Below are positions 4,140 to 24,789 of a stretch of 24,972 nt of DNA, one piece after another (the stretch's first letter is position 1; the number at the start of each line of letters is the position of its first letter). Source of the stretch: a virus. The stretch is from the IMG/VR virus record IMGVR_UViG_3300025151_000284, positions 1 through 24,972 of that record, one strand, 5' to 3'. The position numbers were made by a program, and so were the translations under genes. The notes under the pieces were generated by a model. It was not told where the DNA came from. It worked only from the letters and a program-made list of their open reading frames with translations, and did not search any database.

Positions 4140-4694
4140 CTATATGCTCCTTATTTGGTCGATAAGTTTATCTATTTGTTTTGTATCGACTGGTAAAAAT
4201 TCTTTTTCAAAATCTTTAGCAATACATTCTTCTTCTACTTCTGCTAAAGTTAATTTATCTGTGCAATGTACAGTTACCCAGACACATTCTTCATGTATGT
4301 ATAAAAGTCTTTTTGTTCCTGAGTCAGTTATTCCGTGATACGGAGCTTCTATAGTTTCTGTTCCTTTTTCGCTATACACAGAACACTTGCCTTTCATTAC
4401 AAAAAACGGATGGTTTTGATTATGTATTTTAGTTGCTATAACCATTCCCTTAGGCATAGTAATAGCTCTTACATATTGACCGTCTGCAAAGCTATGCTTA
4501 ACGTAGCCTTCTTCATATCCTTGATAAGCAGGTAAATCTTTATCTTGATTAATTTCTGTTGCGTAGTCTGCTAAAGCTTTTTCAAATTGTTTTACTTTAT
4601 TTTGAAAATTAAGTTTATTTTCTTTATGTTCTATGAACTCACAAACATCTGTGTATGTAAAGTTATCAGTTGTTTTTAATTCAGTTAAAGCCAT
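4140..4694 (-). CDS. Cupin-fold protein (184 aa)
   Basis: Residues about 66-143 look like a single cupin (RmlC-like) beta barrel: a run of short beta strands with a histidine cluster at H91 and H95 (motif IHNQNHPFFVMKGK) and a later H134 that could complete a metal site. The usual cupin Glu is not obvious, so metal binding is uncertain. The flanks are helical and charged, and the C-terminus (150-184) is a Lys/Glu/Asp-rich helix. The ATG overlaps the stop of the upstream 35-aa gene as TAATG, suggesting coupled translation. Cupin genes occur near virion genes in marine phages, but the substrate or structural role cannot be told from the sequence. Confidence 0.65.
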   Translation of the reverse strand: MALTELKTTDNFTYTDVCEFIEHKENKLNFQNKVKQFEKALADYATEINQDKDLPAYQGYEEGYVKHSFADGQYVRAITMPKGMVIATKIHNQNHPFFVMKGKCSVYSEKGTETIEAPYHGITDSGTKRLLYIHEECVWVTVHCTDKLTLAEVEEECIAKDFEKEFLPVDTKQIDKLIDQIRSI

Positions 4695-4878: not shown

Positions 4879-4907
4879 ATTATATATCAAAAAGTGTATA
4901 TTTTTAA
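4879..4907 (-). promoter_or_regulatory. Candidate sigma70-type promoter for the cupin/internal virion genes
   Basis: On the minus strand a perfect TATAAT (4879-4884) lies 17 bases downstream of TTAAAA (4902-4907; 4 of 6 matches to TTGACA). It overlaps the end of the adenylate cyclase gene and sits at the start of one of the longest non-coding gaps in the window (4802-4886), ahead of the 35-aa gene. The local AT-richness makes chance matches likely, hence the moderate confidence. Confidence 0.45.
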
Positions 4908-6623
4908 AGGTTTTTCTTTACCTTTTACTTTTATTGGTTTTAGCTGTTTTAATCGATAGCCGCAATATAGCTCTGTTTCTTCGCCAATAAGTATATCTGC
5001 TCCTGCTTCTTTAGTTGCTGATTCCAACCTAGCGGCAGTATTAACAGCGTCTCCGATAGCTGAGTAATCGAACCGCGTATCGCTGCCCATGTTGCCAATA
5101 ACCGCTTCTCCTGTATTTACGCCTACGCCTATAGCAACACCAATATTGGCTTTTATTATATTTTCTTGTATTTCTTTTGCACATTCTACTGCTATACGTT
5201 CATGGTGTAGCAAATCCATAGGTGCGTTAAATATAGCCATCATAGCATCACCTATGTACTTATCAACCATACCTCCGTATTTTTGTACTGCGTTTGACTG
5301 TATTGTTAATGCTTTGTTCATTATTTCAGTTACTTTTTCTGGTGGTAATGTTTCTGAAAGGGCTGTAAATCCTCTAACATCTGTAAATAAAAATGTACAA
5401 CGTCTTTTTTCTCCACCTAGCTTCAATAAACTCGGGTCTTTTTGTAAACGTTTAACTTGTCGTGGGTCTAGGTAATGTTCGAATTGTTTTTTAATTTGTT
5501 GTCTAAGTTTGTATTGTTCTCTAAAACGTAAGTAGAAAACTATAGCCCCCGTAATAAATTGTGAAACTAAAGACCACGTAACATCTATTAAAACACCTGT
5601 AGATATCGTGTAATAACCGTATAAGCCCGTTAAAGCCATCGTAAGTAAAGCTAGACTTATACCCCAAGTTATCCCTAAATAGCTTATAACTCCCCATACG
5701 AGCCCCACAGACGCTATAAATATTAATAATTCTAAAGCTAGTGCGTAATCAGGTATATAAGGGCTATCCTGAATTAAAAGAGATTCTGCAAGAGCCGCTT
5801 GTATTTTATGCGGTTCTAGTAAACCAACAGGCGTAGCAACCTGCGGCATAACGCCATTAGCAGTTACACCTACAAACACAAATTTACCGTTTACGTTCAT
5901 TTCTTGTAAATCAGTTTCTTCAGTATTTACCCAACTTATCCACTTACGACCTAAACTATCTGTTTTAACAGGAGGCAGTCCTCTAACCGCTATTTCTTGA
6001 ATACCATTAGCATTAGTTGTGATTATATATGTTGGAGTATTTGTTAAGCTTTTTAAAACCTGAGTACCGAAAGAAGCTGACCAACCATCAAGAGACTTTA
6101 ATAAGAGAGGAATTCTCCTAACAAGTTGGTCAACCTCAGTAGGAGCTATCGCAACCCCTTGCGTTATATCATCGTATAGATAATAATTTTCTTTTATTCC
6201 TGAAGATTGTAAACCATCAACATCAGGTCCTTTTATAACAGTTCCTGTAGTTTTAGGGTAAACGCCTTTACCATTTTCGAAGGTAGCTATCACACTTGGA
6301 GCATAACCTAACGCACTCGCGAATCTTTTATCTCCGCCTAGTCTATCTGCTTGTGGAAAACTTATAACCCAACCAACCCCAAGTGCACCTTTTCCTAATA
6401 TTTCTAATTGTATGTTTGCTAGACGTTCTCTAGGTAATGGATAACCCCCTTCTCGTTCTACATCTTCTTCAGTTATGTTTAAAATAACAAAATTACCAGA
6501 AGGTTTTTGTTCTTTTACAAATGCATCAAATACTTTTAATTTAAGTATTTCTGTAGGTGTTGATTGAAATAGCAAAGGTAGTGCTAATATAATCAGTAAA
6601 GGTAGTATATATAATTTCTTCAT
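4887..6623 (-). CDS. CHASE2-domain class III adenylate cyclase
   Basis: The 578-aa predicted inner-membrane receptor cyclase would make cAMP from ATP. Residues 1-20 are an N-terminal membrane anchor, about 25-285 an extracytoplasmic CHASE2-like sensor, about 292-365 three membrane segments, and about 405-578 a class III cyclase domain. Catalytic residues look complete: metal-binding D415 (FTDVRGFT) and D459 (YIGDAMMAIF), purine-recognising K455 and D519 (RFDYSAIGD), and N528 and R532 (VNTAARLES). K and D at the purine positions indicate ATP rather than GTP. It overlaps the FecR gene by ATGA, so the two are coupled, matching the CHASE2-FecR adjacency known in bacteria. A complete receptor cyclase in a phage structural region is unusual. 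The extracellular ligand is unknown. Confidence 0.92.
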   Translation of the reverse strand: MKKLYILPLLIILALPLLFQSTPTEILKLKVFDAFVKEQKPSGNFVILNITEEDVEREGGYPLPRERLANIQLEILGKGALGVGWVISFPQADRLGGDKRFASALGYAPSVIATFENGKGVYPKTTGTVIKGPDVDGLQSSGIKENYYLYDDITQGVAIAPTEVDQLVRRIPLLLKSLDGWSASFGTQVLKSLTNTPTYIITTNANGIQEIAVRGLPPVKTDSLGRKWISWVNTEETDLQEMNVNGKFVFVGVTANGVMPQVATPVGLLEPHKIQAALAESLLIQDSPYIPDYALALELLIFIASVGLVWGVISYLGITWGISLALLTMALTGLYGYYTISTGVLIDVTWSLVSQFITGAIVFYLRFREQYKLRQQIKKQFEHYLDPRQVKRLQKDPSLLKLGGEKRRCTFLFTDVRGFTALSETLPPEKVTEIMNKALTIQSNAVQKYGGMVDKYIGDAMMAIFNAPMDLLHHERIAVECAKEIQENIIKANIGVAIGVGVNTGEAVIGNMGSDTRFDYSAIGDAVNTAARLESATKEAGADILIGEETELYCGYRLKQLKPIKVKGKEKPLKIYTF

Positions 6624-7735
6624 CCGCTACTTTGTCTAATAGTGATGGTAGAATCCCCACCACCATTTATTTTTATTATATTAGAGACACCGTCTTGTAT
6701 CAAAATAACTGTGTACCCGTCACCTGTATTTAAATCAACCCGAGCAGACTCACTTACTTCTCTACGTAAACTTATTGTTTGTCCTGTAACTATTGTAGTT
6801 ATTTGTGTTTGAGTGTCTTGTCCTATAAGAGTGCCTGATATATTTACACGAGTGGCTAACCCAAGCTGTTCTTCTTCTTCTTTTACAGCTAAAGTGTCAA
6901 GTACGTCTAGTAAATCTTCTAAAAAATTTACGTCAAGATAATTTATATCTAGTTCTGTAAATTCTAAATCACTATCCTCTAAAAAATCTTCGTTTAAGTA
7001 ATCAATATCTAAATCGTTAAAATCTAACAAATTAACTGTTTTAGTGTTTGATGTTTCTTCTTGGGCTAAGCTGTCCTCTTTCGGCGGTGAAACTATTAAC
7101 ATATTATCAATAATATCTAATGATAAATCCAATATAACAGGTTTGCTAGGTGCGTTTTCAAACACATTAACCGTTGTTGCTTGGTATGGTTTATTTAACA
7201 AAACACTTCCTGTAGCTGTTACTACCTCTATCTCACCACTAGATAACCCTAAAGCATCAGGTAACAAAATTATAAGACTGCGACCAAGCTCATCTACTGT
7301 AGCTGTAAAGTCTGTACCTCTAATGGCTATATTAGCAGTAGGGGTACTAAGTTTTATGTTTTGTTTATCTATTCGATTTAAGTTACCTGTAATAAACCTA
7401 GCCGTACCTAATGCAAAGTTAAGAGACATTTTAGATTTACTAGGGTCAGGGTCATAGATATATTCATCTATAAGAAGTTGAGAATGCTCGGTAAGTTTTA
7501 CAACAGAATCATCAAGAAAGGTTATAGCCATGCGACCATTAGTTGTTATGGCTTCATCGTTGCTTTGAATAGCGAACTGTAAATTAGCGTCGTAAGTTTT
7601 ATCTCTTACTATTTGAGCAGAACCGTTTAGTTCAGATATATCACCTATATCAACAGCTTGTGCTTGTGCCTTGGTCGTTTTGAATGACGCAAACAGTACC
7701 GTTATTGCCAATAGATGTAATCTTAAGCCAGTCAT
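6620..7735 (-). CDS. Secreted FecR-domain protein with acidic repeats and curlin-like C-terminus
   Basis: This 371-aa protein has a Sec-type signal peptide (about residues 1-25, ending near KAQAQA). A FecR domain follows at about 60-155, with the typical segment LTEHSQLLIDEY and the later TPTANIAIRGTDFTA. Residues 240-275 contain two copies of an acidic 13-residue unit (LDIDYLNEDFLED and LDINYLDVNFLED). The final 30 residues are beta-rich and contain Q347-x-G349-x-x-N352, the curlin repeat signature, and end in RQSSG. Unlike classical FecR regulators it has no cytoplasmic anti-sigma region, and no sigma factor is nearby, so it probably acts outside the inner membrane, perhaps as ligand or partner of the CHASE2 sensor. 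Its start lies 86 bases inside the curlin-like gene, and its ribosome site is weak. Confidence 0.85.
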   Translation of the reverse strand: MTGLRLHLLAITVLFASFKTTKAQAQAVDIGDISELNGSAQIVRDKTYDANLQFAIQSNDEAITTNGRMAITFLDDSVVKLTEHSQLLIDEYIYDPDPSKSKMSLNFALGTARFITGNLNRIDKQNIKLSTPTANIAIRGTDFTATVDELGRSLIILLPDALGLSSGEIEVVTATGSVLLNKPYQATTVNVFENAPSKPVILDLSLDIIDNMLIVSPPKEDSLAQEETSNTKTVNLLDFNDLDIDYLNEDFLEDSDLEFTELDINYLDVNFLEDLLDVLDTLAVKEEEEQLGLATRVNISGTLIGQDTQTQITTIVTGQTISLRREVSESARVDLNTGDGYTVILIQDGVSNIIKINGGGDSTITIRQSSG

Positions 7736-8366
7736 TATCTTGTGTACTCGATTGTGTAATATTAAACGTTCTTGAATTACCTGTTTGGTCTAAATAAAAA
7801 TAACCACCTGCGTAACCAGACCCTGTAAAATTAACTGTGTTACTATCACCGTCTACATCTACATATGAAGTTCCGCCGTCATAATTTATATCAAAATCAA
7901 AAGTATTACCGTCACCATTAATTATCCAATCTAAATCTAATGTTGCAGCTAATGCTGAAGTTCCGTGGTCAAGAGTAAACGTATTTGTACTGCCTGTTAC
8001 ATCTACATTATAGTTAGAATTATCGATACCGTAAGTATTTGTTGGGTCACCTTGTATAGTGAACGTATTACTATCGCCGTCAAACTCAAAGAAACCTGTG
8101 ATAGAATCACCATAGATATCGCCTAAAAATTTATTAGTATCGCCTATTTGGTTTATATCTAAAGTCATAGTAATACCGTCTAAATCTAATGCATTCATAC
8201 TTCCTGCAGCAGATTGTAATCCACCTATGATATTACCTGAACCTAATTGTTCTAAATCAATATTAGCCGTAGCACCTGATTGGTCAACATATATTTCATT
8301 ATCAGCCCCGTATATCAGCGATGCACTCGTCATCACAATCAGGCTCATCAATTTTAATAGTTTCAT
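7650..8366 (-). CDS. Curlin-like secreted repeat protein (putative amyloid subunit)
   Basis: The ATG at 8366 is chosen over an in-frame one at 8393 because GGGAGG lies about seven bases upstream and the product then opens with a proper signal peptide (MKLLKLMSLIVMTSASLIYG). The mature protein (about 217 aa) has short beta strands separated by turns of form [Q/hydrophobic]-x-G-x-x-N. Units begin at residues 29, 40, 73, 95, 123, 149, 171, 194 and 218; those at 40 and 73 match the curlin Q-x-G-x-x-N exactly. Most internal Gln are replaced by hydrophobic residues and the turns are Asp-rich, so it is a diverged CsgA/CsgB relative. It ends with two cysteines (C226, C238). Context directly after CsgG supports it as the exported substrate. 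Amyloid formation is inferred. Confidence 0.8.
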   Translation of the reverse strand: MKLLKLMSLIVMTSASLIYGADNEIYVDQSGATANIDLEQLGSGNIIGGLQSAAGSMNALDLDGITMTLDINQIGDTNKFLGDIYGDSITGFFEFDGDSNTFTIQGDPTNTYGIDNSNYNVDVTGSTNTFTLDHGTSALAATLDLDWIINGDGNTFDFDINYDGGTSYVDVDGDSNTVNFTGSGYAGGYFYLDQTGNSRTFNITQSSTQDNDWLKITSIGNNGTVCVIQNDQGTSTSC

Positions 8367-9171
8367 CTTTTGCCTCCCAGAAATTTCTATCATACCCTAT
8401 TTTGACTATTTGCAAAACAGCCTCTTCAATGGCTCTTTGTAAAGCTAAAGTTGCAGGTTCATTTTCAGCATCCCCTGTTTCTATTTCAACGAGCTCTGTT
8501 CCTGCTTCTATAAACCTAAAAACATCTTGCGACCTTCCATAGCTATATATCTGTTTACTAACTAGAACGTCTATTAAAACTTCTCCAGTAGCTATAGAAA
8601 TCATTCTAAGAGCAACTGTTATATTATCTACTCTGTATTGCGTACTGGTTCCTATACCTAAATACCTTGCTCCCCTACCTCCGCTTTTAATATTTGTATC
8701 AAAACCAATAACGGCACCTTCCATCAGTACCCCTGCAAAAAGTAATGGCATGATTGGTTTAGGTCCATCAGTTTTTTCGTTTTGTTCTCTAGCAGAACGT
8801 ATAAGCTGTCTTTCTTTTGTTAAATTATCAAGACCAACTCTTTCAGCTACTCTGAAAAATCTACCTTCAGCAGTATGTTTTAAACTTCTAATCAGTAAAT
8901 GGCTTGGTGCTTGTGTAAGAGCAGTAGAAAATAAAGCAAACTCACTATTGCTTTTACGTTGTCCTGTTTGGTCTGTAAAACTATTAGGATAAACAGCAAC
9001 GACTATAGGAGTTTTTGGTTGTGATACTTGTAGTAATTCTTCAGATTGTATTTCTAAAACATTGGGTAGTGTTTTATGTTTTGATATTGTGTTGTTTACA
9101 GATACTAAACTACAACTAGAAAGCAAAATCGCCAATAGGCAACTGTATCTCGGTAATATTTCCATCAGCAT
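8302..9171 (-). CDS. csgG: CsgG-like curli secretion channel (outer-membrane lipoprotein)
   Basis: CsgG forms a nonameric outer-membrane pore that exports curli subunits. This 289-aa protein has a lipoprotein signal with lipobox LSSC (C20), and the mature length (about 270) is close to E. coli CsgG (262). Family segments are clear: VAVYPNSFTDQTGQ, FSTALTQAPSHLLIRSLK, ERQLIRSARE, EGAVIGFDTNIKSGGRGARY followed by LGIGTSTQY, ATGEVL and VFRFIEAGTELVE. At the pore constriction, E. coli Y51 and N55 are not conserved while the FSTA Phe (F81 here) is, and one residue is inserted, so gating may differ. The start overlaps csgF by 56 bases with no clear ribosome site; a start two codons later (9165) is equally possible. 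The end overlaps the curlin-like gene by 65 bases. Confidence 0.93.
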   Translation of the reverse strand: MLMEILPRYSCLLAILLSSCSLVSVNNTISKHKTLPNVLEIQSEELLQVSQPKTPIVVAVYPNSFTDQTGQRKSNSEFALFSTALTQAPSHLLIRSLKHTAEGRFFRVAERVGLDNLTKERQLIRSAREQNEKTDGPKPIMPLLFAGVLMEGAVIGFDTNIKSGGRGARYLGIGTSTQYRVDNITVALRMISIATGEVLIDVLVSKQIYSYGRSQDVFRFIEAGTELVEIETGDAENEPATLALQRAIEEAVLQIVKIGYDRNFWEAKDETIKIDEPDCDDECIADIRG

Positions 9172-9610
9172 CGGTTATTTTTAAAGTTATAATATCGTTT
9201 TCGATACTATATTCTATCGTGTTTCCTTCTAACGACAAAACACCTGACGTGCTTGGTGTTTCGCCAAACAAATTTTCCACAAGCTGTCTAGATAATTGTG
9301 CATATATTCTTGACTCTAGGTTTCTAATAAATCTTGCAAGAGTGGTGTTTTCTTTATCTCTTTCTATTTGTTCTTGTAAAGCTTTTATTTCTTCTTTGAT
9401 ACTCATTTTACGATTAAACTCTTGGTTTTCAATCGTTAAGTAGTGCGATGATGTATTTATACCACTGAAAGAGGGGTTTTTAAATTTATGAACTATTTGG
9501 TCTGCTTTAACATTCTGTATAAAAATACCAATAATTAACATTATCCCAATAATAGTAACAGTCCAAATTATTCTGTCTTTTTCTTGTTCCGATGTTTTTC
9601 GTTTTCCCAT
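9116..9610 (-). CDS. csgF: CsgF-like curli assembly factor
   Basis: CsgF is secreted through CsgG, caps its extracellular mouth and helps nucleate curli. This 164-aa protein has a basic N-terminus, a hydrophobic signal segment (about 14-33) and a likely cleavage after VKA (residue 36). The mature protein starts with FKNPSFSGINTSSHYLTI, which lines up with the E. coli CsgF N-terminal FRNPNFGG region that inserts into the CsgG pore. The helical middle (about 70-117) and the C-terminal beta segment (IEYSIENDIITLKITDADG, about 132-150) correspond to the rest of the family. The ATG is preceded by a strong AGGAGG that itself follows the upstream gene's TAG. Placement immediately before csgG supports the call. 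Confidence 0.9.
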   Translation of the reverse strand: MGKRKTSEQEKDRIIWTVTIIGIMLIIGIFIQNVKADQIVHKFKNPSFSGINTSSHYLTIENQEFNRKMSIKEEIKALQEQIERDKENTTLARFIRNLESRIYAQLSRQLVENLFGETPSTSGVLSLEGNTIEYSIENDIITLKITDADGNITEIQLPIGDFAF

Positions 9611-9621
9611 GAACGTTCCTC

Positions 9622-9807
9622 CTAGTGCAAAATTCTTTCTTTTTCCTCAGTGCCGTCTATACCTATTATTACTTTAGCCTCTGCTACAATAACTACGCCA
9701 TAAGCCTCTGCTTCTAAGTCGGCTTCTTCAAAACTGTTTGCACATATAAAAGGACCATCGTATATGGTATCTCCTACTCTAAACTCTGTTATATATACTT
9801 TTTTCAT
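9622..9807 (-). CDS. Small acidic protein of unknown function (61 aa)
   Basis: The frame begins in a TAATG overlap with the upstream holin-like gene and its TAG is followed at once by the ribosome site of csgF, so it is part of the same transcript. The peptide (starting MKKVYITEFRVGDTIYDG) is mixed beta/alpha, acidic, with no signal peptide, membrane segment or cysteine cluster. It is not recognised. Its position next to the curli module could mean a cytoplasmic accessory role, but it could equally belong to the preceding lysis/nuclease group. Confidence 0.6.
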   Translation of the reverse strand: MKKVYITEFRVGDTIYDGPFICANSFEEADLEAEAYGVVIVAEAKVIIGIDGTEEKERILH

Positions 9808-10157
9808 TAATCTTTTCTTTGGTCATCTCTGTCCGCTTTAGCTATTTTGTCTTGATTTATTAAATGAGGAACTCCTAATATAGTTTTAATCATAGTGTCT
9901 TGTCTTATGATTTCATTATCAAGACTTCTAATTCTGTCTATCAGGGCTACTAAGATACCGTGTTGTGAATCAAGTTTACCGCCCAATCTTTCCTCTAACT
10001 GAGTTATTTGACCAGCAACTTTTTCATCAACTACATCTAACTTACTTTCCATACCGTCTACAATACGCATTATAAGTTTATATATAAACCAACCTAATGC
10101 ACCTGCCGCTGCTATTGGAAAACCAACTTCTTGTATTAAAGTAACAGCAGACTCCAT
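9807..10157 (-). CDS. Holin-like membrane protein with coiled coil (116 aa)
   Basis: Residues about 10-31 form one hydrophobic segment (FPIAAAGALGWFIYKLIMRI). It is followed by a charged, heptad-like helical region (about 35-90) and a Lys/Asp-rich tail. This one-segment-plus-coiled-coil layout is seen in some phage holins and lysis accessory proteins. It lies downstream of the lysozyme and thermonuclease genes with TAATG junctions on both sides. A holin role is inferred from topology and neighbourhood only; two smaller membrane proteins at about 13.8-14.1 kb compete for that role. Confidence 0.6.
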   Translation of the reverse strand: MESAVTLIQEVGFPIAAAGALGWFIYKLIMRIVDGMESKLDVVDEKVAGQITQLEERLGGKLDSQHGILVALIDRIRSLDNEIIRQDTMIKTILGVPHLINQDKIAKADRDDQRKD

Positions 10158-10540
10158 TAATAATCACCCCAGACTTTAGTTTTAGTGCCGCCGTGATACT
10201 CTACAGCATGACCTTCTTTTATAAGCATTTCACAAATATCTTTGCCATCTTCCGTATACGGTATTCCTAATATACGACCATACTTGCCTTTACCTAATGA
10301 TTTTACTTTTATTTTTCCTACACAAAGTTCTTTTAGTCTTTCTTTAGCTGCAAGACCTAATACTTTTTCTGCTTTATCTCGTGTTCTTGATTCAGGTGTA
10401 TCTATGCCTGCAAGTCTGACACGTTGTTTATGTAACTTAACATCAAAACCTAAATCTAAACAACAATCAAAAGTATCACCGTCTACAATACGTTCCAGTG
10501 TTGCATTATATACAAAGGCATCGGGTGCTTTTTTAGCCAT
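10157..10540 (-). CDS. Thermonuclease-like (SNase family) nuclease
   Basis: The 127-aa protein is a compact staphylococcal-nuclease fold, which cleaves DNA or RNA phosphodiester bonds with Ca2+. Key residues are visible: D22 in IVDGDTFD, R42 in RVRLAGIDTPE, D47, T48, E50, and R89 in KYGRILG, matching the SNase set D21/R35/D40/T41/E43/R87. No signal peptide is seen, so it would act in the host cytoplasm or be packaged in the virion. Its ATG directly follows the stop of the upstream basic protein. Possible jobs are host DNA breakdown or a virion-delivered nuclease; the sequence does not say which. Confidence 0.9.
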   Translation of the reverse strand: MAKKAPDAFVYNATLERIVDGDTFDCCLDLGFDVKLHKQRVRLAGIDTPESRTRDKAEKVLGLAAKERLKELCVGKIKVKSLGKGKYGRILGIPYTEDGKDICEMLIKEGHAVEYHGGTKTKVWGDY

Positions 10541-11590: not shown

Positions 11591-11917
11591 TTATAATATT
11601 GGTATTATTGTGTTTCCATTTGTTGATACACTTACTTGCCCAAGAGACATAGTTCCTTGAACTCCTTTTTCCGTTCCCGAATAAATATCTGACCATTGCT
11701 CTCCTGTCCATAATTGTAATTGTTGCGTACTTAAATTCCAAATAAGGTCGCCACTATTAAACTGGTTTATATTTCTTTGTGACTCATTAACGTTTACAGT
11801 TGAATTAACATCAACCTTATTTAAACTTAACTCTAAAACTCTAACTAATCTATTAAAGATTTCTGGAGTAATGGGTCCTATAGCTACAGGAAGTTTTGTT
11901 TCTAATAGTTTAGACAC
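11591..11917 (-). CDS. Small virion-associated protein (108 aa, GTG start)
   Basis: The frame starts at GTG, sharing its last base context with the nozzle gene stop (TAGTG), consistent with coupled translation. It is a 108-aa protein with a helical N-terminal half (KLPVAIGPITPEIFNRLVRV) and a beta-rich C-terminal half with aromatic residues (DLIWNLSTQQLQLWTGEQWS). No signal peptide or known motif is seen. Position between the nozzle-like gene and lysozyme suggests a minor structural or tail accessory protein. Confidence 0.6.
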   Translation of the reverse strand: MSKLLETKLPVAIGPITPEIFNRLVRVLELSLNKVDVNSTVNVNESQRNINQFNSGDLIWNLSTQQLQLWTGEQWSDIYSGTEKGVQGTMSLGQVSVSTNGNTIIPIL

Positions 11918-13800
11918 TATCGCATTCCATCAGGTTTAATGTCTAGACGAGTAGCTCCTAATCTAAAACTCATTCCTATCTCATTAGTGTTTGTATCATT
12001 GGATTGAACTCTTAAAACAGCTTGTCTACCTCTAGCTCTTGTATCTATTTTAGTAGTTACAGAAGTGCAAGCACCTGTAACTGCTGTGGTGAGCTCCTCT
12101 CCAGGAAAATTTCTTCTTTTTAAAACTATATCTACTGTTTGACCGTTTGCTCCCGTACTAGCAGAGCCTGTGAATTTAACATCAGGGATTATTCTACTTA
12201 TAGACTGATACATATCTCCTTCACCTAAATCGAAATCTGCGGATTCTATAAACACATTAGTCATAGCAGTGCCGTCATCATCATTACCTGTCTCATGATT
12301 AAATAAATACCCAACATCGTTTGTGCTTGATGTTGCTTTAGGGTCACTAAATATTCCCTCATCCAACCAACAAGTTCTAGAAAGCTCTCCTATCATCCAT
12401 ACGTTTTCTTCATAGTTGTAGGTAACATACCTATCGATAACATTACTATCAGCGGAACAATAAAACCAACCAACTTCATCAAAAGCTTTATTTACAAAAC
12501 CGAATATTTGATAACTTTGTATTTGATTTAAATCAGAAAATACGTACTCATCTACAGTACAAGGAAGTTGTTGTATATTTCCTGAATATGTGTAAAAACC
12601 TTTTTTATCCATCCAAAACACCCCTTTCGGTGTGTTTATCATAGCGTTAGGTCCTACTAATCCAACCCCCTCATTTACTAAATTAATTGAAAAGGTAAAA
12701 GGCTGCCCTACAAATGTCATAGAATATAAAGACGTGTCAGTCCATATTAAAGTTTCTTGTCTTGCTCTAATTGCTCCAATAATTGACGACCCTGCTGAAA
12801 GCCTAAATGAGCCTGCTGTATTTGTTGGTAAAGGTTCCCATTCCTCTACGTTTTCTTGGTCGCTCCAAGCAATAAACATCGGGTCTATTGAACCTGTTCT
12901 AGTTGAGTTTTCTATGGGGTCTGCCCCAAAACAAATAACGTGTCTATCTACATCAGACACCATAACTTGTAATGCTTTTGTAGGTGTTAAATTAGCCCCC
13001 GATAAAGCAGATAAAGCAACAGCTCTTGTTCCTGTTCCATTAGATTTATCCCAATAAAAAACTCCTGAACCACGTGGGTTTATTACTAAGTCTTCTCCGA
13101 AATTATCGTGAGACCATAATCTTAGCTGATTTGTAGATTCTAATGAAGTAACGCTTCCCCATGTTCCTGCACCCCAATAATCAGACCCCCAACCCGTAGA
13201 AGGAATATACACATCAAGCCCTACATTTAATTGATAGGTTCCTACCACACTACTTCCACCATTCCCAGTATCAGAACTGTTCGCCGTAACAACATTACCG
13301 TCGGTATCTTTAGCTGTAATCGTGTAGGTATTTGTCGTTACAGTTAAAATTTGATATTCTTGATTTAAAACATTAGCAGAGATAGTTCCACCTAACCCTA
13401 CTGCTGTACTAAAAGTAACAAAATCGTTAGCAACAGCTCCGTGTGCTGTGTCTGTTACAGTAAGAGTAGAAGAACCATTAGTTGCTGCAAACGTTACGTC
13501 TCCAGAAGCGGTAGTTGAACGTATAGGTGTTATATCGTTAAAAACTATTCCATCTATAACGTAGTATTTCCAAGTAGTTCCTAACCCTAAATACTTAGTT
13601 CCTGACAAAGCTACCCAAGCATGAAGTGCTCGTCCTGTGGCTTTAAAACTATTAAAACTAGCTTTAGCCCATCCACCTATTTTTTCTGGTAATCCTTTAC
13701 GAAAACGAACTAAATTAGAGTTAACCCAACCACCCTCACTGGCATAGTCTGTAGCTTCTTTATTTATTCCTGGTTTAAATAAAAGTTTTTGAAGAGGCAT
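11917..13800 (-). CDS. Tail nozzle / packaged-DNA stabilisation-like protein (627 aa)
   Basis: This large beta-rich protein begins with LLFKPGINKEATDYASEGGW followed by VNSNLVRFRKGLPEKIGGW, an N-terminal pattern shared by short-tailed phage tail-hub proteins of the P22 gp10 / T7 gp12 functional class. The middle has repeated WxxDxS/W motifs (FIAWSDQENVEEWEPLP, LIWTDTSLYSM) compatible with a beta-propeller platform. Residues about 90-190 form an Ig-like Ser/Thr/Asp-rich insert. The start is supported by GGAGG seven bases upstream. Such proteins plug the DNA channel and attach tail fibers. The family assignment is from sequence pattern and length; exact homology is not tested here. Confidence 0.75.
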   Translation of the reverse strand: MPLQKLLFKPGINKEATDYASEGGWVNSNLVRFRKGLPEKIGGWAKASFNSFKATGRALHAWVALSGTKYLGLGTTWKYYVIDGIVFNDITPIRSTTASGDVTFAATNGSSTLTVTDTAHGAVANDFVTFSTAVGLGGTISANVLNQEYQILTVTTNTYTITAKDTDGNVVTANSSDTGNGGSSVVGTYQLNVGLDVYIPSTGWGSDYWGAGTWGSVTSLESTNQLRLWSHDNFGEDLVINPRGSGVFYWDKSNGTGTRAVALSALSGANLTPTKALQVMVSDVDRHVICFGADPIENSTRTGSIDPMFIAWSDQENVEEWEPLPTNTAGSFRLSAGSSIIGAIRARQETLIWTDTSLYSMTFVGQPFTFSINLVNEGVGLVGPNAMINTPKGVFWMDKKGFYTYSGNIQQLPCTVDEYVFSDLNQIQSYQIFGFVNKAFDEVGWFYCSADSNVIDRYVTYNYEENVWMIGELSRTCWLDEGIFSDPKATSSTNDVGYLFNHETGNDDDGTAMTNVFIESADFDLGEGDMYQSISRIIPDVKFTGSASTGANGQTVDIVLKRRNFPGEELTTAVTGACTSVTTKIDTRARGRQAVLRVQSNDTNTNEIGMSFRLGATRLDIKPDGMR

Positions 13801-14226: not shown

Positions 14227-14769
14227 TTATAGAAAGTTAAACCATCCTGTAATAATATATTTTTCTTGGTTCTTAGATATTTGTCCTCTATGAGTGTGTG
14301 TCCACCCTGCAGGAAAAATAATTGTTGAACCTTTTTTAGCTTCGGTAACACAATCTTGATATAAAAATTCTGTTCCTCCATTTTCAACATTATTAAGATA
14401 AGTGCTAAAAACTAAATGTCTTTGTATAACATGAGGACCACCATCATTTTCTGCGTGCCATTTATAAAAACCCCATCCTTTGTCGTAATACTGTATTTTG
14501 GTATTATGGTTAATACCATAAAACTCTACATTATTTGCAAATTTATATTTTGAAACATATTGTTTTAGGCATTTTAATAATTCATCTCTATATAAAAAGT
14601 TTGTTAAATCTTCTGGAGTTATCATTACTTCTAATGATTTTTTAAATTTTTTATCTACTCTATTATTACCTACTGTACCGTCTTCTGCGTTATGTTTATT
14701 GCTGTTCCAATAGTCTAATAATTCATCAACAGCTTTGTTATTTATTTGATATTTTTCTATAAAATTCAT
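14227..14769 (-). CDS. 2-oxoglutarate/Fe(II) dioxygenase, third of three (180 aa)
   Basis: A prolyl-4-hydroxylase-like jelly-roll oxygenase. The iron ligands appear as H105-A-E107 (FYKWHAENDG) and a distal His in GWTHTHRGQ (H158 or H160), and K170 in EKYIITGWF is the likely 2-oxoglutarate anchor. Using Glu instead of Asp in the HxD/E motif is less common. The middle contains RHLVFSTYLNNVENGGTEFL, typical of the family. It overlaps the upstream oxygenase by ATGA. The substrate could be a protein side chain, lipid or small molecule; the sequence does not show which. Confidence 0.85.
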   Translation of the reverse strand: MNFIEKYQINNKAVDELLDYWNSNKHNAEDGTVGNNRVDKKFKKSLEVMITPEDLTNFLYRDELLKCLKQYVSKYKFANNVEFYGINHNTKIQYYDKGWGFYKWHAENDGGPHVIQRHLVFSTYLNNVENGGTEFLYQDCVTEAKKGSTIIFPAGWTHTHRGQISKNQEKYIITGWFNFL

Positions 14770-15362
14770 TGTTTAAAATAAGAAGGTAATCCTAATAAAG
14801 GTCTACCATCAAACTTGTTTTCTTTTGCATCTTTACCACTTGCATCGTTGTAGTGTAAAAATACTTGTCCACAATCTTTACCTTCAAAAGGTTTTCTCCA
14901 ATGTTCTAAATCACAACCACGATACATTAACATATCTCCTGGTTTTAAATTTACTTCAATATCAGGTTCTAAATATATTGACCATTTATCCCCACCTAGA
15001 TTCATAGTAGTAGATATTTCACAAGAATATCTATCTTTATGTCTTTTTAACTCATCGCCTTTTTTATAGATTCTTGCATAAGAATAAGTTTCAATTAAGT
15101 TTAAACCCGATTCTTTTTCCATAATTGGTTTAACTTTTTGTAATAAAGTTTCCATAACTATATCTGAGTAATGTGAATAAGTTTCTGGTATTTGGTCATC
15201 ATTCCAGACACCAAAGTATTCAGTAAACGGTGATATGAATCTTTCATCAAACAAGTGTCTTGCAACTGCTCGTTTATTTAAAAAGTATTGATAACAAAAA
15301 TCTGCTAACTCTGTTGATATAGCTTTTTTAATTACTTGGTATTTATCTTTTTTAAAACTCAT
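14766..15362 (-). CDS. 2-oxoglutarate/Fe(II) dioxygenase, second of three (198 aa)
   Basis: The ATG at 15362 overlaps the previous stop as ATGA, so it is preferred over an in-frame ATG 27 bases earlier. The likely iron ligands are H108-K-D110 (ELKRHKDRYSC) and H154 (DLEHWRKPF), within a jelly-roll region that includes LKPGDMLMYRG. The classical Arg or Lys 2-oxoglutarate anchor about ten residues after the last His is not obvious here; R156 may serve, so activity is likely but less secure than for its neighbours. The three oxygenases differ strongly in sequence and are not recent duplicates. Confidence 0.82.
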   Translation of the reverse strand: MSFKKDKYQVIKKAISTELADFCYQYFLNKRAVARHLFDERFISPFTEYFGVWNDDQIPETYSHYSDIVMETLLQKVKPIMEKESGLNLIETYSYARIYKKGDELKRHKDRYSCEISTTMNLGGDKWSIYLEPDIEVNLKPGDMLMYRGCDLEHWRKPFEGKDCGQVFLHYNDASGKDAKENKFDGRPLLGLPSYFKQ

Positions 15363-15979
15363 CTGAACGGATATCCTAAATTCCAACACACTAAGGAGTG
15401 TCGTGTTCCTTTGGTTACAGGTGTAACTCTATGCCAGACGAAAGAGGGAAAAACTATTACGCTACCTTTTTGTCTTACTTCTTCACATATTCTTGGTTGT
15501 GAACCTTCGTCTGTATTTCTAAAATCAAACTCTAAATCTCCACCCTCATATTCTTCAGGGTTAGTAAGTGATACAGTCATGCTAAGTTTTCGTAACTTGC
15601 CGTGCCTATTTAAGTCTTTAGGTTCGTCATAAGGCTCTTCGTATGAATCACAATGCCAGTCATAATACTGACCAACTTTGTATTCAGTAAATTGACAAGG
15701 CTCTGACCAATCCCATTGAAAATTCCACTCTGCATTTATATTTGCTTGATGTATGTAAGGATGTATTTCATTATATATCCATCTATCAGGCATCCATACA
15801 ACATCTGATTTACGTTTCTTTTGAATGTTTTTTAATTGCTCTCCTGTAAGTTTTCTTTTGTTATTGTTTCCTGTAATAGCTATCTCTTTATCTTGTTCTT
15901 TACCATAACGTACTATATCGTCACATATTTTTTCTGGTATAGCGGATTTAAAATACCAATAATACCATTTAAGATTCAT
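15359..15979 (-). CDS. 2-oxoglutarate/Fe(II) dioxygenase, first of three (206 aa)
   Basis: This PKHD/P4H-type hydroxylase shows a complete facial triad: H109-C-D111 (YYDWHCDSYE) and H183 (FPSFVWHRVTPV), plus R193 (GTRHSLVCW) as the 2-oxoglutarate anchor. The intervening LSMTVSLTNPEEYEGGDLEF matches the usual core strands of the family. Its start lies 11 bases inside the sulfotransferase gene and its end overlaps the next oxygenase by ATGA, so the enzymes are co-translated. The substrate is unknown. Confidence 0.9.
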   Translation of the reverse strand: MNLKWYYWYFKSAIPEKICDDIVRYGKEQDKEIAITGNNNKRKLTGEQLKNIQKKRKSDVVWMPDRWIYNEIHPYIHQANINAEWNFQWDWSEPCQFTEYKVGQYYDWHCDSYEEPYDEPKDLNRHGKLRKLSMTVSLTNPEEYEGGDLEFDFRNTDEGSQPRICEEVRQKGSVIVFPSFVWHRVTPVTKGTRHSLVCWNLGYPFR

Positions 15980-16736
15980 ATTCTTTTCCTATGTGTTTAT
16001 ATTTTTCTATAACAGAAGGAAGTAAAAAATCTTCTATTGGGTATGTTTTCTTTTCTATTTTATCTGTTCTTATTGTGTGTAAATCTACATCACCAAAAAT
16101 AGAATCATCATATTGCACACCTTGTATTTCAAATTGTTTGAGGTTTGTATAAGTATGTTCAAACTTAGGTATATTAAAAAAATCATAAACACTATTAACT
16201 GTACTTTGTGGGTTAGTAGTTAGTTGGTCGTATGTAATAAATAAATGTTCGTAGTTTTTCTGTATTAAAGGAATTTGCTTAATAACGTTTCCTAAAACAC
16301 CTGTTTCTGGGTTCATAAAATAGTCTGCATCTATTCCAATATTTTCGTTTTTAACTTTAAATGCTTTTAATAATGAAGCTAAACATTCTAGCGGGTTTCT
16401 GTACAAAATTAAAAATTTAATCTTTTTATCAAAATACTTTTCTAATAATTCAAGATTGCCATCTGAGCCCCAATTACATCTATTAATAACATATTTTGTT
16501 TTAAATGTTTCAGAATAAGTATAAAAAGTTTTTCTAATAACATTATCTAAAGAATCGTGATGAGGAAAATTTAGTTGTTGGGGAATTTCTTCATTGGTTT
16601 TTATAAAATCAAGTTGGTAAATAATTTCAGTAAGAGGGCTGTTAGCTGTGAAAGTTATATCGGGGTTTTGGTTTAAGATACTGCCAAGTAGGGTGTTACC
16701 CGCACGTTGCATACTAATACAAAAATAAAGTTCCAT
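15969..16736 (-). CDS. Sulfotransferase-family protein (255 aa)
   Basis: Sulfotransferases move a sulfonate group from PAPS to a hydroxyl or amine. The 5'-phosphosulfate loop is visible at residues 8-17 (SMQRAGNTLL, in the place of the PxSGTTxL loop) and the 3'-phosphate site at LYRNPLECLASLL with R113 and S121 at the family's usual spacing. The C-terminal part contains PKFEHTYTNL and basic residues. Q10 and R11 replace the common Pro-Lys in the loop. The gene begins 13 bases after the polyglycine adhesin with no clear ribosome site, and heads the enzyme cluster. Possible targets are a sugar or protein on the virion or host surface. Confidence 0.85.
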   Translation of the reverse strand: MELYFCISMQRAGNTLLGSILNQNPDITFTANSPLTEIIYQLDFIKTNEEIPQQLNFPHHDSLDNVIRKTFYTYSETFKTKYVINRCNWGSDGNLELLEKYFDKKIKFLILYRNPLECLASLLKAFKVKNENIGIDADYFMNPETGVLGNVIKQIPLIQKNYEHLFITYDQLTTNPQSTVNSVYDFFNIPKFEHTYTNLKQFEIQGVQYDDSIFGDVDLHTIRTDKIEKKTYPIEDFLLPSVIEKYKHIGKEYES

Positions 16737-23880: not shown

Positions 23881-24789
23881 TTATGCTCCAGGGGAACCGA
23901 AGATACCTCTCCAGTCACTCCAACCAAAGCTGTAACGTTCTCTAGCTTTGTATCTTACATTACCAGTTTCGAAGTCACCTTCCATACTAGTTGATACAGG
24001 AGTTCTAACGAAGTGTTTTAATCCGTTAGGTACGTCAGTTTTGATAAAGAAAGCATCAGTATCTGTTAGATAATGGTTTACAACATAACCTTCAGAAATC
24101 ATTCCCATGTTTCTGATTGCATTGATGTCATTATCTGAAGTACCAACTCTTCCAGGAGTTTCCATCAGTCTATCTGCTACAAATTGTAAAGCAGGTGGAA
24201 TGATAAGTTTTCTTGCCTGAGCATTAACTTTTAGATTTCTTTCATCTTTGAAGTCAGCGATGTCAATCAACGCTTGTTCAAGAGAAGTTTCGTTTAAGTC
24301 AGCTGCTGTAGACAACTCGTTTCTTAAATCCACGTTAGCAACAGTAGGATGGTCAGTAGCACAAAGCTCTTTTCCATCTCCACCAACATATGAAGAACTA
24401 AACGCATTGTTTAATACGTTAGCTGCTTTCACTTGCTTAGTTTGTTGCATAGACCTAGCTAAAGCTCTTGTATATCTTGAAGAAAGAGTATCATAAAGAT
24501 TATCCTCTATTGCTTCTTCAGTCAACGCGAAAGCTAATGCTACGGTTTCGTGTGTGAAACGTGATGTCCAGGATTCTTGAGCTGTATCGTAAACGACCGC
24601 TGCTCCTTCTCCTTTAGTCGGTGCTTCACCAAATCCACTTAACATTACTTCTTCCTCGAAAGCTCTTTCAGAAGTCTCGGTATCGAAGATGTCTTCGTGT
24701 TCGTTATTATATCTCTCATACTCTAATCCAAAGAGAGCATGGAGTCCTGGTACTAGTTCTTTAACTAGTTGGGCTCTATTAATTGCCAT
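23881..24789 (-). CDS. Major capsid protein (302 aa)
   Basis: A 302-aa protein with a helical N-terminal arm (MAINRAQLVKELVPGLHALF, then EDIFDTETSERAFEEEVMLS), a long helix-rich core (TALARS-type segment RALARSMQQTKQVKAANVLN) and later segments such as LKVNAQARKLIIPPALQFVA and NPLF-like C-terminal strands ending FGWSDWRGIFGSPGA. The pattern is that of HK97-fold / Mu gpT-like head subunits. The start has AAGGAGA upstream. A strong terminator follows. I am confident it is the major head protein; the precise subfamily is not tested. Confidence 0.85.
   Translation of the reverse strand: MAINRAQLVKELVPGLHALFGLEYERYNNEHEDIFDTETSERAFEEEVMLSGFGEAPTKGEGAAVVYDTAQESWTSRFTHETVALAFALTEEAIEDNLYDTLSSRYTRALARSMQQTKQVKAANVLNNAFSSSYVGGDGKELCATDHPTVANVDLRNELSTAADLNETSLEQALIDIADFKDERNLKVNAQARKLIIPPALQFVADRLMETPGRVGTSDNDINAIRNMGMISEGYVVNHYLTDTDAFFIKTDVPNGLKHFVRTPVSTSMEGDFETGNVRYKARERYSFGWSDWRGIFGSPGA

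Follow-up and report, generated by a model that had tools for sequence, protein, structure and literature searches.

The question raised by the locus described here is why a phage of marine bacteria should carry, among its late genes, what resembles a bacterial amyloid exporter together with a signaling enzyme. The stretch of DNA analyzed, hereafter the window, is the IMG/VR virus record IMGVR_UViG_3300025151_000284 (24,972 bases), in which the late genes all lie on the minus strand. At positions 4887–9610, five overlapping minus-strand genes encode a CsgF, a CsgG, a curlin-repeat protein, a FecR-domain protein and a CHASE2 class III nucleotide cyclase (Table 1); coordinates and Pfam matches agree on this content, which a preliminary description made from the sequence alone had recognized. 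Our reading, to which we assign a probability of roughly 0.55, is that these genes make up a transferable module for late curlin export, with a periplasmic-sensor cyclase of its own, through which the infected cell would display a curlin-type protein. The window is assigned to the HTVC023P-type podoviruses, of which it represents a fragment, because its major capsid protein is 73% identical to that of 023Pt_psg01 and 70% to that of Pelagibacter phage HTVC023P; membership of this type is judged by major capsid and late-gene relatedness, and here the capsid comparison supports it. Judged from these phage relatives, the host is probably a marine bacterium of the SAR11 type.

Two components of type VIII secretion, a CsgG pore lipoprotein and CsgF, are present. 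CsgF starts with a hydrophobic export segment, followed by a CsgF domain (residues 24–158) that matches PF10614 above the cut-off. The CsgG profile matches the E. coli CsgG structures at an E-value of 3e-64, viral relatives 95% identical to the window protein exist, and the latter is predicted to be an outer-membrane pore lipoprotein. A csgG match (40% identical) was also found in the unannotated phage record OR851715.1 ('Salmonella phage S.Kent 1-2-1', 1,499 bases), which is probably a bacterial fragment.

The putative export substrate has a Sec-type signal at its N-terminus and no further membrane segment in a hydropathy scan; judged from relatives, its true start is probably codon 10 (approximately position 8366). 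It is the weakest of the five Pfam calls, as the window protein alone reaches PF07012 at an E-value of 0.16, under the cut-off. At the level of the family it is nevertheless classed as a curlin-repeat protein, because 11 of the 13 aligned relatives match PF07012 (best E-value 8.6e-6). An AlphaFold model (mean predicted local distance difference test score, pLDDT, of 70) shows a ladder of eight strand-turn-strand repeats, and with a repeat profile derived from bacterial curlins the score of the window protein was reached by 0.3% of shuffled sequences. The VIA-align rows for the model list generic beta-solenoids (SufB/SufD and others), and the curli fiber structure is not among them.

The FecR-domain protein consists of a Sec-type signal (recognized by sequence), an acidic leucine-rich linker and a conserved beta-rich C-terminus; a hydropathy scan, in which the Sec signal itself stays under the threshold, shows no other transmembrane segment. 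The C-terminal motif is found in 68 of 72 cases. By eye the C-terminus (VILIQDGVSNIIKINGGGDSTITIRQ) resembles a curlin repeat, which is suggestive as a lead only. A FecR-curlin fusion was considered and rejected: 3–7% of shuffles reach the repeat-profile score, HTVC008M and Melnitz give no profile match, and no Pfam curlin repeat was detected.

For the cyclase, the PF05226 match spans residues 12–303, and the predicted topology comprises a periplasmic CHASE2 domain (approximately residues 28–289), hydrophobic transmembrane segments (approximately 290–362) and a cytoplasmic cyclase domain (approximately 375–578). All class III residues are present, including the metal-binding aspartates D415 and D459, the substrate-binding K455 and D519 and the catalytic N528 and R532. 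The catalytic residues are kept in 56–58 of the 59 cyclases compared; the Melnitz enzyme has a serine in place of the catalytic asparagine. By its residues the active site is intact, and the enzyme may produce cyclic AMP (cAMP).

The gene set is not confined to this record. A search of viral contigs for co-occurring genes, as suggested in the preliminary description, was carried out with the window CsgG and yielded 173 stretches coding for CsgG relatives; the comparison was made on 80 loci. Fifty-one loci are sufficiently long for the order CsgG-curlin-FecR-cyclase to be read, and none departs from it; CsgF and a small membrane/coiled-coil gene lie upstream of CsgG in 70 of the 70 loci with enough upstream sequence, and a staphylococcal-nuclease gene follows farther upstream in 69 of these 70 (podophage-type contigs). 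The five genes occur in the same order in two cultured phages, HTVC008M and Melnitz. A chimeric assembly of bacterial and phage DNA is excluded, because identical junctions recur in dozens of independent contigs and in both cultured phages. The module is likewise far from absent in related phages, a finding that would have spoken against it, and the claim that a curli-like export set is carried by phages in one gene cluster with FecR and a CHASE2 cyclase holds for viral contigs and cultured phages alike.

Median ratios of nonsynonymous to synonymous substitution (dN/dS) against relatives range from 0.07 (curlin) to 0.135 (cyclase), with FecR and CsgF in between; the values are rough, as dS is near saturation. 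They indicate purifying selection on genes that are maintained rather than decaying. Promoter and terminator scans across the module gave results near chance level. In locus L073 (8584–11374), approximately 1.7 kb of extra sequence separates FecR and the cyclase, at the site of the second curlin-repeat gene in myophages. The 73,876-base viral contig G449, the source of locus L014, has two class III cyclase matches at separate places; perhaps the module is present twice, or the assembly is redundant.

Among podophage-like contigs we distinguished two gene-order types, in which the homologue of the head/packaging gene at 11917–13800 lies upstream of the module in one and downstream in the other. 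Across both types, median identity to the window is approximately 82–91% for the nuclease, CsgG, curlin and FecR, versus 69% and 60% for the head/packaging gene; cyclase identity is 70% in the second type. In a CsgG tree the gene-order types intermix, and the starred branches alone force two to three changes per label. These patterns show horizontal movement of the module between phage backbones. The same tree places all phage sequences apart from seven chromosomal alphaproteobacterial CsgG proteins (support 100/99), with several long branches that leave the deep placement unsure.

The bacterial sample consisted of 387 Alphaproteobacteria genomes, seven of which have an above-cut-off CsgF. At these seven genuine chromosomal csgFG loci (L113–L119) csgF adjoins csgG, and curlin-repeat genes are nearby in several, as in the phages; unlike in the phages, phage-built profiles detected no FecR or CHASE2-cyclase neighbors, and CsgG belongs to a separate clade. 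FecR does adjoin a CHASE2 class III cyclase in ordinary alphaproteobacteria (L124, L129, L132, L135), but there the cyclase is approximately 33–38% identical, FecR is oppositely oriented and no curli genes were matched. From chromosomal csgFG loci lacking FecR and cyclase on the one hand and separate FecR/CHASE2 pairs on the other, the phage set looks like two bacterial units joined, one for curli export and one for FecR/CHASE2 signaling. A parent operon with all five genes was not found among the 387 genomes. Metagenome-assembled genomes (MAGs) labeled Maricaulis, Neomarinimicrobiota, Flavobacteriaceae, Rhodobacteraceae and Pelagibacter (L084–L090) carry the phage module; these are apparently phage contigs that were grouped with bacterial ones during binning, and would mislead trees of 'bacterial' curli.

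From these features a course of events can be proposed. The position of the module among late genes suggests that it would be expressed late in infection. CsgG and CsgF would then assemble in the outer membrane as a simplified type VIII secretion pore, through which the curlin-type protein with its beta repeats would reach the surface of the infected cell and perhaps form fibers there. FecR, exported to the periplasm, would pair with the CHASE2 domain of the inner-membrane cyclase, and the latter would report the state of the envelope or of fiber export as intracellular cAMP. The most likely benefit would be an altered cell surface late in infection, through aggregation or the exclusion of competing phages. 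A virion-associated amyloid, also raised in the preliminary description, finds no support, as the Sec or lipoprotein signals on curlin, FecR and CsgG point to the envelope of the infected cell.

Several observations weigh against this proposal. No match to the CsgE gate was obtained in the open reading frames (ORFs) scanned around the module. CsgF, CsgG and curlin are present, but 'full amyloid export set', the term first used for this locus, is too strong; CsgE is likewise absent from the phage cluster according to PMC9599517, and it is accessory rather than defining, as export without CsgE has been reported (PMC7029224). A Foldseek search of the curlin model against the PDB returned nothing at an E-value of 0.001 or better, the structure model of FecR (mean pLDDT 43) was too poor and was not used, and no clumping was seen in Melnitz-infected cultures (PMC9004378). 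The other difficulty lies in the output of the cyclase. We assembled 58 genomes of 1.0–1.6 Mb that are taken to belong to the order of a 'Candidatus Pelagibacter' MAG, the likely host order, and found the Crp helix-turn-helix family in none of them. The cyclic-nucleotide-binding (cNMP-binding) domain is absent from all 11 module-bearing phage records, each with a cyclase. These negatives rest on Pfam, where other receptor folds would escape, and the phage contigs are possibly incomplete.

Of all steps in the mechanism the cAMP branch is understood least, since no receiver can be seen. PMC9599517 suggested, on the model of how CsgD is regulated in gammaproteobacteria, that cAMP regulates phage curli; these domain searches identify no receiver for it, either in the likely host order (no Crp family in the 58 genomes) or among the phages (no cNMP-binding domain in the 11 records). 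The coupling of a cyclase to the cluster stands as first described; a signaling pathway leading on from it does not yet. Within the 58 genomes the sole class III cyclase and the sole CsgG sit on a phage contig in the 'Candidatus Pelagibacter' MAG, and no genome has a class III cyclase of its own. A cNMP-binding domain occurs in four of the 58, in no case within a CRP-sized protein; two such proteins were scanned, and the additional domain is an acyltransferase in the first and an ABC transporter in the second. Three genomes of the SAR11-like order (L108–L110) encode a large cNMP-binding protein, to which L110, the one scanned, adds an acyltransferase domain; this might be an enzyme under cyclic-nucleotide control, and no other candidate target for cAMP of this kind was encountered.

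How the cyclase might act is accordingly a matter for tentative proposals. It is conceivable, although we would not bet on it, that the phage brings a self-contained signaling circuit, with a functional cyclase tied via periplasmic FecR to the amyloid export pore, into a lineage without class III cyclase or CRP; the receiver would be an undescribed host or phage effector, or the product would act extracellularly. Alternatively the enzyme may act metabolically or as the source of an exported signal rather than via a transcription factor, cAMP or another cyclic nucleotide being met by an unrecognized effector, consumed, or leaking through CsgG. The active site is intact and conserved, yet neither a CRP-type regulator nor a cNMP-binding protein was found in the respective sets, which favors this alternative; receptor folds outside the Pfam cNMP_binding family, a host assigned through phage relatives and possible gaps in the phage contigs count against it. 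We consider it unlikely, and it is compatible with curli export.

Other explanations give the pore itself the central role. With curlin secondary, CsgG and CsgF could be a device for lysis timing or envelope permeabilization, pinholin- or secretin-like and timed by the cyclase, as proposed for Melnitz (PMC9004378). The module adjoins lysozyme, nuclease and a small membrane protein, a pore without the CsgE gate may stay open, and the unclumped Melnitz cultures fit as well. A lysis pore needs no curlin, however, whereas all informative loci, HTVC008M and Melnitz have curlin-repeat genes beside csgG, and curlin is under strong purifying selection; moreover, a holin acts in the inner membrane, and CsgG is a lipoprotein of the outer membrane. 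We therefore regard a lysis device as doubtful. More improbable still is an uptake pore, in which ungated CsgG would admit scarce nutrients or siderophores while FecR and CHASE2 sense the envelope (PMC9599517, PMC7029224). The lack of CsgE, an oligotrophic host and the iron association of the FecR name agree with uptake, but it leaves the conserved curlin protein and CsgF unexplained, and a FecR domain by itself is no sign of iron, as FecR also lies beside bacterial CHASE2 cyclases. We retain surface export of a curlin-type protein by the infected cell as the preferred reading.

Very abundant ocean bacteria have phages whose amyloid export module, equipped with a sensor cyclase, looks complete. 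If it works, infection would alter the surface of cells that are regarded as free-living and as not forming aggregates. With no cAMP receiver visible in the likely host order, the loose published idea that cAMP regulates phage curli becomes a sharp and testable problem; what keeps the locus interesting is this orphan cAMP output, together with an amyloid that is still putative.

The genes flanking the module are phage genes, with lysozyme and nuclease adjoining as first described, but two early labels require correction. The 'cupin' fits tail-fiber families better (its Pfam cupin match, E-value 0.008, is under the cut-off), and the 'holin-like' 116-aa gene matches no holin family. The latter is a small membrane/coiled-coil protein that probably belongs to the module, because counterparts precede csgF in HTVC008M and Melnitz; in other loci the counterparts measure 92–119 aa, some in tandem pairs. 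A histidine kinase would have dimerization/phospho-acceptor and ATP-binding domains, and no kinase domain was found at E-values up to 1 in the 116-aa protein or its Pfam-scanned counterparts (92–115 aa). Elsewhere in the window, a low-GC stretch (approximately 29%, 14227–16736) with oxygenase-like and sulfotransferase genes lies amid structural genes.

Table 1. Features of the window discussed in the text (positions in the 24,972-base record).
Feature	Position	Strand	Length (aa)	Evidence or remark
Tail-fiber-like gene ('cupin' in the preliminary description)	4140–4694			PHROG short tail fiber/tail-fiber adhesin, E 7e-28
CHASE2 sensor + class III nucleotide cyclase	4887–6623	-	578	PF05226, E 5e-22; Guanylate_cyc PF00211, E 2e-19
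FecR-domain protein	6620–7735	-	371	PF04773, E 4.9e-10; phrog_37870, E 3e-71
Curlin-repeat secreted protein	7650–8393	-	247	Family-level PF07012; model; repeat profile
CsgG homologue	8302–9171	-	289	PF03783, E 2.5e-47; lipobox LSSC
CsgF homologue	9116–9610	-	164	PF10614, E 9.2e-18; phrog_35372, E 1e-45
ORF between coiled-coil gene and csgF	9622–9807	-	61	In a minority of relatives; no family match
Small membrane/coiled-coil protein	9807–10157	-	116	Upstream of csgF in 70/70 loci, HTVC008M and Melnitz
Staphylococcal-nuclease-like gene	10157–10540	-		PF00565, E 9e-15; ~90% identical in both gene-order types
2-oxoglutarate (2OG)-Fe(II) oxygenase-like gene	14227–14769			
Gene between the two oxygenase-like genes			207	No Pfam match
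2OG-Fe(II) oxygenase-like gene	15359–15979			
Sulfotransferase	15969–16736			
Major capsid protein	23881–24789			73% identical to 023Pt_psg01, 70% to HTVC023P

The preliminary description left room for a new system, which is not borne out: the module, with cyclase and FecR included, is already known. PMC9599517 (mSystems 2022) reported a cluster of CsgF, CsgG and CsgA/B in HTVC023P-type and myovirus pelagiphages, with expression in metatranscriptomes; upstream there is always a 'histidine kinase' or a pair of them, and downstream come FecR and often a second curlin and an adenylate cyclase; csgF and csgG had been described in pelagimyophages (PMC7029224, 2020) and in Melnitz, a Methylophilales phage (PMC9004378, 2022). 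To these accounts we add the lack of a visible cAMP receiver, the seven chromosomal csgFG loci without FecR or cyclase neighbors, and the nature of the 'histidine kinase', which from its position and tandem copies is most likely the small membrane/coiled-coil protein. The HTVC023P-type type VIII secretion cluster shares with the window the phage type and the order of CsgF, CsgG, CsgA/B, FecR and cyclase; the window differs in lacking a second curlin gene and in having the 116-aa non-kinase gene where the paper names a histidine kinase. HTVC008M and Melnitz have the same five genes in the same order, FecR and cyclase included, with proteins only 27–46% identical to those of the window and, unlike the window, with an additional curlin-repeat gene that separates FecR from the cyclase (bearing a PA14 domain in HTVC008M). 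The deposited Melnitz record (MZ577097.1, 7695–12556; locus L083) annotates two curlin-repeat proteins, FecR and cyclase beside csgFG, whereas the text of PMC9004378 describes csgA and csgB as lacking; given these curlin genes, the bare-pore reasoning for Melnitz should be revisited.

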